Assembly (NCBI GenBank): GCA_024641785.1
Contig: JAHECK010000011.1
Coordinates: 1-43,113, forward strand
Origin: Flavobacteriales bacterium
Lineage (GTDB): Bacteria; Bacteroidota; Bacteroidia; Flavobacteriales_D; JAHECK01
Direction: 5' to 3'
Length of the DNA stretch: 43,113 nt
Made by a program: the position numbers and the translations under genes. This document shows positions 6,693 to 14,719 of this stretch, piece after piece (positions within the stretch are counted from its first letter, which is position 1; every line of letters starts with the position of its first letter). The notes beneath the pieces are model-generated. The model had not been told where the DNA came from. It was given only the letters and a program-made list of their open reading frames with translations, and ran no database searches.

Positions 6693-6714
6693 AGCCGGAA
6701 GAAAACTTCCGGCT
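6693..6714 (-). terminator. Intrinsic terminator of ppiD
   Basis: A perfect 9-bp stem (AGCCGGAAG/CTTCCGGCT) with an AAAA loop. On the minus strand the stem is followed by a run of seven Ts, so it terminates ppiD. On the plus strand, which carries rodA, no T-run follows, so termination there should be weaker. Confidence 0.9.
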
Positions 6715-10256: not shown

Positions 10257-10448
10257 TTAATAACGATCTTTAAATTTAGAATACATACTTCTTCTGAAAA
10301 CATACATTGTAATTGATATTATTGGTAATAAAATTAATATTAAATTATTTTCAGTACCGTAATAGATGTAATAAATTACAACAAAAACTACCGATAGAAT
10401 TGAAACTATCAGCCAAAACATTTCTAAGAATTTGTTAATACGATTCAT
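10257..10448 (-). CDS. Small two-span membrane protein, conserved in Bacteroidota
   Basis: About 63 residues with two hydrophobic segments (starting EMFWLIVSILSVVF and LILILLPIISITMY) separated by a short polar loop, and a basic C-terminal tail (RRSMYSKFKDRY). Function is unknown. Small proteins of this shape are commonly found between lptC and the CorC-type gene in this phylum. The ATG at 10448 (MNRINKF) is preferred. ATG 10457 and GTG 10463 are in frame, but they fall on or beside a predicted transcription start. It is 24 bases downstream of lptC. Confidence 0.75.
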   Translation of the reverse strand: MNRINKFLEMFWLIVSILSVVFVVIYYIYYGTENNLILILLPIISITMYVFRRSMYSKFKDRY

Positions 10449-10462
10449 GCTATTCATAAACA

Positions 10463-10470
10463 CAAATCTA
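10463..10470 (-). promoter_or_regulatory. Possible internal promoter, -7 element TAGATTTG
   Basis: On the minus strand this 8-mer matches the Bacteroidota -7 consensus TAnnTTTG exactly. Transcription would start near 10459, just before the small membrane-protein gene. No convincing -33 TTTG is visible. It would let the small gene and corC be expressed independently of lptC. Confidence 0.45.
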
Positions 10471-10487
10471 AGGATATAAAATAAAGA

Positions 10488-11069
10488 TTATAATTTTTCA
10501 TCTTCTTCATCATTTCCACCAAAATCATCATTCAAATAATATTGACCAGTTACCTTTTTGATCGTGTACTGAGAGAAGTCTTCATTCGATTCAAACCCTT
10601 TTCCATGTATTACAACATCTTTACGTTTTATCTTAATGTATTTATCAGTATATATTTTCGCACTGTCTTGTTGCCAAATAAGTTCTTCTGTATATAATTC
10701 TTCTTTTTTGAAATTAACTAATATAACACTGTCTCGTGCGATCATCAATCCTTTACTTGAAATGATCTCGCCGTATTTAGCTTCAAGGTATGCAGTAGGA
10801 ACTAAATTAGAATCTAAGAATTCCAATTTAAAGCCATTTGGCATTATTGTATTCTTATTTTTATATTGATAAACTAAAGGTGCAAACAATCGGTTTCCAA
10901 CTCGTCCATTTAAAGATCGAAGATAAGTAACATCAAAGGATTCTTTCATTGGCAACTCTTCAAATTCACCAATCTCTTTGACTTCGTTGATCGTGTTTTT
11001 GCATGAAAAAAGCACTATCATCAGAAAGATGATAGTGCTCAATTTAAATATCTTCAAATATGAAATCAA
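10488..11069 (-). CDS. lptC: LptC-like LPS export lipoprotein
   Basis: Expected to be the periplasmic bridge component of the Lpt machine that moves lipopolysaccharide from the inner to the outer membrane. The 193 residues start with a lipoprotein signal peptide (lipobox VLFSC, C23), as is usual for Bacteroidota LptC, followed by a beta-rich LptC/OstA-like domain whose ends are hard to place by eye. The start is TTG at 11069, three bases after the TPR gene's stop. The first in-frame ATG (codon 17) would destroy the signal peptide. The signal-peptide codons form a 12-bp terminator-like hairpin, annotated separately. Confidence 0.82.
   Translation of the reverse strand: MISYLKIFKLSTIIFLMIVLFSCKNTINEVKEIGEFEELPMKESFDVTYLRSLNGRVGNRLFAPLVYQYKNKNTIMPNGFKLEFLDSNLVPTAYLEAKYGEIISSKGLMIARDSVILVNFKKEELYTEELIWQQDSAKIYTDKYIKIKRKDVVIHGKGFESNEDFSQYTIKKVTGQYYLNDDFGGNDEEDEKL
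11006..11039 (-). terminator. Terminator-like hairpin inside the lptC coding sequence
   Basis: On the minus strand the RNA would form a perfect 12-bp stem (AGCACTATCATC/GATGATAGTGCT) with a 5-base TTTCT loop, followed directly by TTTTTC. It starts 30 bases after the TTG start of lptC and encodes the hydrophobic part of the signal peptide. Shape and T-run match an intrinsic terminator. Whether it acts as an attenuator is inference. Confidence 0.6.
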
Positions 11070-11072
11070 TTG

Positions 11073-12422
11073 TTAATCATTAATTTTCACTTTTGTGCTT
11101 TCACCCCAACATGAAACTTCATAAGTATCTCCTACTTTTAAATTTTGGAAGAAAAGCGCTTCTTTTCCAGCAAAATATTTTTGATATGTTGCAATGTATT
11201 TATTAGCTTGATCTGCAACGGAAGGATCGACTGATTTTGCTTTATAAAAATAATCTGTTGCTAACCAATACACTCCAGATTTTGCAATTGGATCAGATCC
11301 ACAATCTTCTGCACTTCCAGCGATTGCCATTCCAATTGTTAAATAAGCATCACCACTATTTGGGTTTAGTTTTAGTGCTTCCCTCGCATAATAAACAGCC
11401 TTTTTATTTTGGTTTTCAAAATAGGTCGCTTTAGCGGCCTTTAATAAATATCTTTCTCTGTCTGGGCAATCTCCACATAATTCTACCGCTTGTATTAAGT
11501 ATTTTGCAGATAATGAATATTCTTTTCTTTTACTCATAAGCAAACCAAGTCCATATGCAGATCTGGCTGAAGGTTCCATCTCATATAATTTTTTCGCTAC
11601 AGTAGCAAAAATCTCGCTGTCAGTGCACTCTCTTTTAGATAGGAGATAACTAGCAACTCTTAATGTCTGGAGATCATTCGGATTATCTTTTACTCGACTT
11701 TCAATGATAGGTTCAATATCTTCACATAAAGCGACCTTAATAAAAATATCATCAGCAGTGAGTTTTGCTGAATTATATTGTTCCATATCAGCAATATAAC
11801 CAGCTTTTTTATCTTCACTAGTAGTTTCTAACATATTAGCTTCAGCATCAAATAAAGCCCCATCAATAAATTCAGAAATAGGAATAAACTCCTCAATAAG
11901 AACAGATTTTTCGAGTTGTTTGTCTGTATATAATTTATAAATAATTTGATAATAGGTTGCTAAAACACCCGCTTCACTATTTTGTTTTCCAAGGTATACT
12001 GATTTTTTAAGTGTTTCATAAGCAGCCATCAGATTATCTTCATCATACTTTGCCATATCACTTCCTTTTCTTCCTAATACATAAGCATCTTGATGAAAAT
12101 ATTCGATTCTTCGATCATAGATTAAGTATAAAGTATCAATAAGACCTCTTTTTACAATTGGATCTTTTGCTTCATCAATAAAGTCACGATACATATAAAC
12201 ACCATTTATATATATTGATTTTTGGGACTGTGGACAGATATTAAAAACTTTTATCCAACCTGCTTTAGCATCTTTATAATTCTTTTGTTTAAAGTGCTCT
12301 TTATAAAGAGAAATGTTAGTTACACATTTAATGCTATCCTCTTCTGTATTTCCATACTTACCTTGACCAAACAAATTTCCTGTAAGTATCATTAAAGTGA
12401 AAATCCAAATCTTTGCTTTCAT
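11073..12422 (-). CDS. Periplasmic TPR-repeat protein
   Basis: 449 residues with an N-terminal signal peptide (about 1-19, ending LFGQ) and tetratricopeptide-like helical repeats. The clearest TPR stretch is about residues 285-385, with AKYLIQAVELCGDC and AVYYAREALKLNPNSGDAYLTIGMAIAG. The C-terminus (about 425-449) is a short beta segment. Precise function is unknown. TPR proteins of this kind act as scaffolds for envelope complexes. It is 17 bases from the outer-membrane protein gene and 3 bases from lptC, so it is probably co-transcribed with both. Confidence 0.8.
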   Translation of the reverse strand: MKAKIWIFTLMILTGNLFGQGKYGNTEEDSIKCVTNISLYKEHFKQKNYKDAKAGWIKVFNICPQSQKSIYINGVYMYRDFIDEAKDPIVKRGLIDTLYLIYDRRIEYFHQDAYVLGRKGSDMAKYDEDNLMAAYETLKKSVYLGKQNSEAGVLATYYQIIYKLYTDKQLEKSVLIEEFIPISEFIDGALFDAEANMLETTSEDKKAGYIADMEQYNSAKLTADDIFIKVALCEDIEPIIESRVKDNPNDLQTLRVASYLLSKRECTDSEIFATVAKKLYEMEPSARSAYGLGLLMSKRKEYSLSAKYLIQAVELCGDCPDRERYLLKAAKATYFENQNKKAVYYAREALKLNPNSGDAYLTIGMAIAGSAEDCGSDPIAKSGVYWLATDYFYKAKSVDPSVADQANKYIATYQKYFAGKEALFFQNLKVGDTYEVSCWGESTKVKIND

Positions 12423-12439
12423 AATATTCTTATTGCATT

Positions 12440-13813
12440 TTAGTTATATTTCTTCTTCTGGAACCATCTATTAAAGCGATGTGGTAGTAAAATAATTCCC
12501 ACCATAATATTAGTATAATCCTGCTTTATTAGACCGTTCTCTGTTGTCCCTTGGGTGCCAAATTCCATGCCAAAATTGACACTTGAATAAGATTGGGATT
12601 TTGACAATGGGAAGTTAAATCCAAAACTTATTGCTTTATCATCTAGTTGATAGTCCTGAAATTTCAAATAGTTGGTCGTGTATCTTCCTCCAAGCCGATA
12701 AGTAATCGTTTTAAGGTAAGAAGTATTCATTTTTCGGATCGTCAATGGTACCATCGTATACTGCAGACCGGCAGAAATTCTCCACGAATCGGTAACATTA
12801 TTATTTGGAATTTCAAATCCATTAACCACTTGCTTAAAATCATTCCAATTTTGTTTTTCGTAGTCTACACCAATTTGGAACTGATTATTGATGTCAACCA
12901 TTAATCCAATACCTAATCTAAGAGGAATATAGGTGTCTCCTTTTAAATCATCTGAATAAAAAATAGTATCCTGAGGAAAAATTTGCTCAAGAGCATCATA
13001 GGTGTAGGTATAGTAATTTGATTTCCATGTAGTATTAAGATTTTTTGGGATATTAAAAGTAACACCCAGGGAAAGGTTAATATAATTACTTGGAGATATC
13101 TTTTTAAGGTAGGTTTGATATTGAAGACCAAGATCAAAACCAAAATCAGATATTATTTGAGATTCTTCGAATCGGGTATTGTAATATGAAAAATCACCTG
13201 AATCATAAATTACATCGTAGAGTGATCGTTTATTCCCATTGTAATAATTAATATTTATACCTGCACTTAATGAAGACATTTGCCCAAGAATCGTATCTTT
13301 CTTTTCAAATATTTCATAAGAAAACCCCATATACAATTTAGTGTAACCTCCATCACCTTCGAAATTATAGATTAATGGGAATTCCTTTCCATTTCCATCC
13401 GTGAAACGATCTGTGACAATAATTTTATACCCAACAGTAGTTGCCGGATTAAATCCAAAAGCCCAACCAATCTTTGATCCTAATTTAAACCCTAATGCTA
13501 TATTATTGATCGTTCCATTATTTAATTCTTGAGAATTCAAAGAGGATGAAACCTTCAGAAACTGACCCTTATACCCTACTTGAAAAATAGGATTATACTT
13601 TTTAAAATGACTATATGAAGCCGGATTCATAGGGTTTATTGATAGGGAATCATTAAACGCGTAACCAATCCCACCCATTGCAAATGAATAATCATATCCT
13701 TGAGGTACAAGCTCTCCTAATCCAAACCCTGAATAGGGTGAAATGGATGTTGTCTGCCCTAACAATAGATTTGGAACAAAAACAATAATAATTAATAAGT
13801 ATTTCAATCTCAT
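12440..13813 (-). CDS. Outer-membrane beta-barrel protein of unknown function
   Basis: 457 residues with a signal peptide (about 1-19, cleavage likely at LLGQ/TTS). Alternating hydrophobic/polar strands run through the rest, with many Tyr/Gly/Asn and aromatic-ended segments, as in barrel proteins of the FadL/PorV-like kind in Bacteroidota. Motifs near the N-terminus (SPYSGFGLGEL, MGGIGYAF, SINPMNPASYS) resemble that group. It overlaps coaX by 4 bases and is followed by the TPR gene, an arrangement repeated in many genomes of the phylum. Whether it is a channel, a secretion accessory or a structural barrel cannot be told from sequence alone. Confidence 0.75.
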   Translation of the reverse strand: MRLKYLLIIIVFVPNLLLGQTTSISPYSGFGLGELVPQGYDYSFAMGGIGYAFNDSLSINPMNPASYSHFKKYNPIFQVGYKGQFLKVSSSLNSQELNNGTINNIALGFKLGSKIGWAFGFNPATTVGYKIIVTDRFTDGNGKEFPLIYNFEGDGGYTKLYMGFSYEIFEKKDTILGQMSSLSAGININYYNGNKRSLYDVIYDSGDFSYYNTRFEESQIISDFGFDLGLQYQTYLKKISPSNYINLSLGVTFNIPKNLNTTWKSNYYTYTYDALEQIFPQDTIFYSDDLKGDTYIPLRLGIGLMVDINNQFQIGVDYEKQNWNDFKQVVNGFEIPNNNVTDSWRISAGLQYTMVPLTIRKMNTSYLKTITYRLGGRYTTNYLKFQDYQLDDKAISFGFNFPLSKSQSYSSVNFGMEFGTQGTTENGLIKQDYTNIMVGIILLPHRFNRWFQKKKYN

Positions 13814-14541
13814 TTATCTACCTGAAAATTCAAAATTTCATTTAATCCTCGTAGGGTCAAATATGGGTCCGCAAAGATGTGATTTTTTAGGACTTTTTCA
13901 AAGTATATGGAAAAGCCTCCTGTTAATACTACTTCTATATCGATAAATTGGCTTCTGTATTGTTCAATGAAGTAATTTATTTCCCCAATAATTCCGTAAT
14001 AAGCACCGGAAATCATAGAATTAGAAGTAGAATCTCCAATAATTTCAGTCCCAATAGCCGGATCTAAAAGAGGTAACTGATCTGTAAAATGATGCATTGA
14101 ATCCAATCTCATTTTATAGCCTGGTGATATTGATCCCCCTAAATATCTTTTTTCTTTCGTAATAAAATCAAATTTATTACATGTCCCCATATCTATAATC
14201 AATACATTCTTATTTGGAAAAATAGTATTTGCAGCAACTGCATTACATATTCTATCATTCCCAAGACTCAAGGGTGTTTTGTAGTCAATATGAATCGGAA
14301 GATTACTTCCGTTAAACTTTAATAAAAAAATTAAAATTTCTTTTTTGTCTAAATATTTTTGAAATTTTTTTGGGATTTCTTTAACTTTTGTAATTCCAAT
14401 TTTTTCTATTTCAAACCCATTCGCAATTTCAATCAATTGATTTAGATTATCATAACTTATATAATTAAAGGTTTTAAGAGTCTTTTTATCAAAGATTCCC
14501 ACCTTTATTTGTGTATTCCCAAAATCAATAATCAGATTCAT
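13810..14541 (-). CDS. coaX: CoaX, type III pantothenate kinase
   Basis: It phosphorylates pantothenate in the first step of coenzyme A synthesis. At 243 residues it is the usual size for the ASKHA-fold type III enzyme. Visible motifs are the phosphate-binding DFGNTQIK at residues 6-13, the G-N-D-R segment carrying the catalytic Asp (SLGNDRICNAVAAN), DMGTCNKFDFI, and GGSISPGYKMRLDSM. It is the first gene of the leftward envelope block and overlaps the next start by 4 bases (ATGA). A -7 element ends four bases upstream of the ATG, so the mRNA may have almost no leader. Confidence 0.93.
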   Translation of the reverse strand: MNLIIDFGNTQIKVGIFDKKTLKTFNYISYDNLNQLIEIANGFEIEKIGITKVKEIPKKFQKYLDKKEILIFLLKFNGSNLPIHIDYKTPLSLGNDRICNAVAANTIFPNKNVLIIDMGTCNKFDFITKEKRYLGGSISPGYKMRLDSMHHFTDQLPLLDPAIGTEIIGDSTSNSMISGAYYGIIGEINYFIEQYRSQFIDIEVVLTGGFSIYFEKVLKNHIFADPYLTLRGLNEILNFQVDK

Positions 14542-14643: not shown

Positions 14644-14719
14644 GGTGCCATAGCTCAGTTGGTAGAGCAAAGGACTGAAAATCCTTGTGTCCCTGGTTCG
14701 AATCCAGGTGGCACCACCA
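14644..14719 (+). tRNA. tRNA-Phe (GAA)
   Basis: A 76-base tRNA including an encoded CCA. The acceptor arms GGTGCCA/TGGCACC pair fully. The D arm is GCTC/GAGC, the anticodon arm AAGGA/TCCTT encloses the loop CTGAAAA with anticodon GAA, and the T arm is CCTGG/CCAGG with TTCGAAT. The discriminator is A at 14716, followed by CCA at 14717-14719. Confidence 0.98.

Follow-up and report, generated by a model that had tools for sequence, protein, structure and literature searches.

A hairpin followed by a run of T's lies in the signal-peptide codons of lptC in the window (the whole stretch of 43,113 nt analysed here), and this hairpin is a real feature and not a product of chance. Across related genomes its presence tracks the TPR-protein gene located upstream rather than lptC, and it is better called the terminator of the TPR unit. 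Judging from the conservation of the sequence, it is probably an intrinsic terminator that goes with the TPR gene and is built into lptC, where it would cause a leaky step-down of transcription between the two genes.

The lptC gene, encoding the LPS export lipoprotein, is an open reading frame at positions 10488-11069 of the minus strand, assigned by TIGR04409 (57.1 bits, cut-off 38) and also matched by PF06835. Its start codon is the TTG at 11069-11067, TTG being the only kind of in-frame start 5' of the stem, and the codon of the lipobox cysteine is at 11003-11001. Three bases separate the TTG from the stop codon (11075-11073) of the TPR-protein gene (11073-12422, minus strand), whose presence predicts the hairpin. 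Further upstream on the same strand are a bamG family gene (12440-13813, NF053685), which adjoins lptC in relatives that carry neither the TPR gene nor the hairpin, and coaX (13810-14541, PF03309), which encodes type III pantothenate kinase and opens the run. The BAM complex of Bacteroidota, described recently, includes BamG; that description mentions neither lptC nor operons (PMC12611786). At the head of the coaX-side run, a tRNA gene was observed at 14644-14716 on the plus strand, and spurious ORFs on either strand overlap it.

The hairpin comprises positions 11010-11040 of the minus strand, as established by folding, scanning and covariation. Its 5' arm (11040-11028, GAGCACTATCATC) and its 3' arm (11022-11010, GATGATAGTGCTT) enclose a 5-nt loop, TTTCT (11027-11023), and form a 13-bp stem of 12 Watson-Crick pairs and one outer G-U pair, with five GC pairs. 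As in intrinsic terminators, a T-run is found immediately 3' of this G+C-containing hairpin: the U-tract consists of six T's (11006-11011) and is read as the lipobox code CTT TTT TCA. The distance from the TPR stop codon to the hairpin is 32 nt, and the stem proper starts 30 nt after the TTG. The preliminary description, made from the sequence of the window, had reported a 12-bp stem with a 5-base loop and a T-run 30 bases after the TTG, which matches the minus strand exactly, and its statement that the same bases encode the signal peptide and lipobox of LptC was borne out.

The folding energy of the hairpin is -19.5 kcal/mol, and the 111-nt region around it gives z = -5.2, with none of 200 shuffles folding equally well. 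A 10-kb scan returned 12 terminator-like sites, this hairpin among them, where 4.7 were expected, and within the first 150 nt of sense ORFs across the window it is the sole strong terminator-like hairpin. When the signal peptide was recoded without altering the protein, just one of 2000 recodings scored as high. Regarding Rfam, only a tRNA was above threshold in the window and the hairpin had no curated family match, so a known Rfam element was rejected as its identity.

A relative of the same genus (G001, the Flavobacteriales MAG JAUVAY010000039.1) has an lptC gene 71% identical to that of the window, with the hairpin at the same place. The two stems differ by three double-compensatory pairs, one G-U/A-U switch and two broken pairs, a pair count that is weak alone, being reached by 77 of 500 shuffles. 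A comparison of two sequences proves little, and therefore a wider set was collected, with 110 loci of the order Flavobacteriales, about 90 of the class and the named ones. The order loci are mostly the best matches to the LptC of the window, so this sample leans towards its relatives; many loci come from metagenome assemblies, the thresholds of the hairpin score were set by us, and the family and genus labels (f63, f27, g-numbers) are codes.

In this set the hairpin has a well-defined position. Of 106 order loci, 52 have a strong hairpin with a T-run in a single 50-nt bin, the one that precedes the codon of the lipobox cysteine, and all other bins together (about 2.5 kb in the same loci) held two. 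Bearers, one of which is Cryomorpha ignava, have stems with a median length of 13 bp and, within the order, a median stem energy of -19.5 kcal/mol. In Flavobacteriales the median distance from the TPR stop codon to the start of the stem is 32 nt (range 22-44); outside the order it is 28 nt. Under codon shuffling that maintains the protein, p is below 0.05 for 50 of the 51 loci, and these shuffles and the position peak rule out a chance origin. As a general observation, 380 kb of the genome G019 contain seven terminators inside ORFs versus 35 intergenic ones.

Where the TPR gene is directly upstream of lptC, the hairpin is present in 53 of 59 Flavobacteriales loci, versus none of the 46 in which bamG occupies that place (Fisher 1e-23). 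Counted by genus, the ratio with and without hairpin is 32:1 for TPR upstream versus 0:14 for bamG upstream, and outside the order the hairpin was found in 32 of 46 TPR-upstream loci versus 4 of 39 bamG-upstream loci. The preliminary description was correct in seeing a terminator-like element in lptC, but its presence follows the TPR gene and not lptC, to which it had been ascribed. On phylogenetic trees, about six changes in the presence of the TPR gene are counted for the order and 25 for the class sample; in no case does the hairpin change in the opposite direction, with only three to five well-supported independent pairs, a number that is not significant. Relocation of the TPR gene to another place in bamG-type genomes was also considered and discarded, as a profile search of 24 such genomes gave no convincing TPR relative and a single weak match to a generic repeat.

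The hairpin is dispensable, because some TPR loci (five or six in Flavobacteriales and 14 of 46 outside the order) and the reduced genome G028, which was read by eye, do without it. The locus L069, counted as lacking the hairpin, shows a visible one just below threshold. All four exceptions outside the order that have the hairpin and no TPR gene directly upstream belong to the family f63 (L112, L113, L114 and L118); bamG adjoins lptC in them, and the hairpin is shorter in three of the four. Members of f63 with the TPR gene have longer stems, and three of the exceptions are possibly remnants left after TPR loss. Moreover, an intergenic form exists in the Cyclobacteriaceae-type loci L160-L164, with hairpin and U-tract in the gap between the TPR gene and the ATG of lptC, and the f27 loci L133, L190, L191, L195, L196 and L238 present a hairpin and T-run 3' of the TPR stop codon. 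In most loci of both groups the hairpin lies 5' of the lptC start codon.

Concerning the overlap with the protein code, covariation was analysed in loci picked by a proline at -11 or -12 and a glycine at -5, ignoring third letters. In the commonest geometry, third codon positions pair with third codon positions. At the best (outer) wobble pair, Watson-Crick pairing holds for 22/22 and 15/15 loci, where shuffling leads one to expect 7-10, and the letters are T-A, A-T or C-G; with one locus per genus the counts are 15/15 and 9/9, and shifted control pairs are mostly unpaired. The question raised in the preliminary description, whether compensatory synonymous changes preserve the stem, is thus answered in the affirmative by the double-compensatory pairs of G001 and by wobble positions that covary across genera. 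To judge from the Pro...Gly peptide pattern, present in 34 of 54 bearers versus 0 of 43 bamG-type loci, the signal peptide is also shaped by the hairpin.

The U-tract behaves in a similar way. The eight bases before the Cys codon contain 6.1 T's in bearers versus 3.7 in bamG-type loci, and the lipobox Phe codons at -3 and -2 of bearers are TTT in 63 cases and TTC in one, with a TTT:TTC ratio of 284:139 elsewhere in the same genes. In addition, Phe is found at -2 in 41 of 53 bearers versus 5 of 43 bamG-type loci. Codon and residue choice therefore show that the U-tract is under selection at both the synonymous and the amino-acid level, and the stem, with its wobble covariation, is likewise maintained by selection, as would be the case for an intrinsic terminator.

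Taken together, the hairpin and T-run would constitute a Rho-independent terminator linked to the TPR-protein gene. Because in most bearers lptC begins where the TPR gene stops (offset of 0 nt at the median, 10-90% from -5 to +7), this terminator would fall within lptC and double as code for the signal peptide and lipobox. Relatives keep the hairpin at this site, between lptC and the genes upstream of it, where the preliminary description had placed the cut in the transcript, and with a start at the TPR stop a ribosome could affect the hairpin. The start codon is 5' of the stem, so any lptC mRNA encoding the signal peptide must cross it, which implies a leaky or conditional terminator. The hairpin is located between co-directional genes, and no promoter of lptC lies after it. 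Its likeliest job would be a fixed step-down, yielding much mRNA for TPR and less for lptC and later genes, and ribosomes passing from TPR to lptC may tune termination. We infer that termination occurs in the cell and that it is partial; partial termination has been recorded in Flavobacterium psychrophilum (PMC9723704). Codon usage, taken as a proxy of expression, fits what a step-down would predict in G019, where TPR is at the 94th percentile, ribosomal-like, and lptC at the 10th. A second member of its genus agrees, with the 95th and 25th percentiles, and a third does so less well, with the 57th and 10th; the contrast was seen in this one genus and is absent from the AT-rich genome of the window.

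The terminator could instead be gated by translation, with the hairpin melted by ribosomes that complete TPR and initiate again on lptC, and transcription stopping when they fail. This attenuator is possible, if on balance doubtful. The lptC start at the TPR stop with the stem about 30 nt later would suit it, as would the many bearers with TTG or GTG starts only, and ribosomes of E. coli are described as blocking intrinsic terminator hairpins (PMC5021804). However, in L160-L164 and f27 the terminator precedes the lptC start, beyond the reach of lptC translation, which speaks against gating as the general purpose of the element. Nor was a conserved antiterminator pairing detected between the upstream 70 nt and the 5' arm (the duplexes have a mean z of -0.03, and no value falls below -2), and a leader-type attenuator of that kind was rejected. 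The suggestion of the preliminary description that weak initiation at the TTG permits termination amounts to a trend: ATG is missing from the likely start range in 32 of 54 bearers versus 17 of 43 bamG-type order loci, a non-significant enrichment (P=0.07). A class-wide, dual-coding terminator of this type, with lptC and later genes transcribed only upon the passage of ribosomes from TPR to lptC, seems rather unlikely. If the translation-gated reading were true, LPS-export supply would be tied to the translation of the outer-membrane biogenesis operon.

The hairpin might also act on mRNA stability or translation and not on termination, by protecting the 3' end of the TPR mRNA, by RNase processing or by slowing ribosomes during signal-peptide synthesis. 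A strong stem soon after a stop codon and within signal-peptide codons is what such roles would use, but none of them needs the selected U-tract directly 3' of the stem, and a role in the signal peptide should be independent of the upstream TPR gene. We consider this improbable, and intrinsic termination is favoured because a hairpin of another role does not need the selection seen on the U-tract. Finally, a conserved peptide prone to palindromes, I-P-A...A-G-I-F-F-S-C, could yield the hairpin as a by-product, and in many bearers its amino acids do make first and second codon positions pair. This is scarcely credible, since third positions covary far beyond shuffles, recoding destroys the hairpin, and the pattern accompanies the hairpin in part of the bearers and never occurs in bamG-type loci, other bearers including the window using different peptides. 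As a full account, the by-product is refuted by the third-position covariation.

The rplL-rpoB attenuator and the rpsU-dnaG terminator of E. coli are partial terminators within operons, located in intergenic or leader RNA, and the frdD-ampC attenuator is the terminator of one gene that attenuates the next from within its leader. The proposed lptC element would resemble the former two as a leaky intrinsic terminator lowering a downstream essential gene, and frdD-ampC as the terminator of one gene attenuating the next. Unlike rplL-rpoB and rpsU-dnaG, it consists of signal-peptide codons that belong to the downstream gene itself, and across a class it is present or absent together with the upstream gene; unlike frdD-ampC, it lies inside the downstream coding sequence. 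Functional internal terminators that set unequal expression within operons are also described in Methanococcus maripaludis (PMC10450193), a shared principle with archaeal RNA polymerase and signals and another operon, and the abstract of that work contains no dual-coding hairpin. In E. coli, 3' ends inside ORFs have been mapped (PMC7815308); premature ends within coding regions would be common to both cases, but those are measured RNA ends and the lptC hairpin is known from the conservation of its dual-coding stem. No description of this element was found in the literature, with subscription journals and supplements incompletely covered.

The lptC hairpin may be a remarkably clear example of codons that carry a transcription signal and a protein signal at once. 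The gene concerned belongs to the LPS-export machinery, and paired synonymous changes have preserved the dual code through long evolution. Expression within an envelope-biogenesis operon of Bacteroidota, beside the recently named bamG, is predicted to be unequal, and a TPR protein about which little is known becomes linked to that operon. Furthermore, the hairpin offers a natural test case for transcription-translation coupling in Bacteroidota, and annotation tools that assume terminator-free coding regions would overlook such an element.

Downstream of lptC, a small membrane-protein gene (10257-10463, minus strand) lies before corC/gldE; it has no Pfam or NCBIfam match, and small genes occupy the equivalent place in G001 (L003) and G028 (L247). 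Just 5' of it, TAGATTTG (10471-10464, minus strand) fits the Bacteroidota -7 motif; the internal promoter that the preliminary description had placed here was rejected, as the sister genome G001 has no such motif there. A compact terminator, AGCCGGAAGTTTTCTTCCGGCT followed by TTTTTT (6693-6714, minus strand), is found directly 3' of a PpiD-like gene and likely marks the end of the run.
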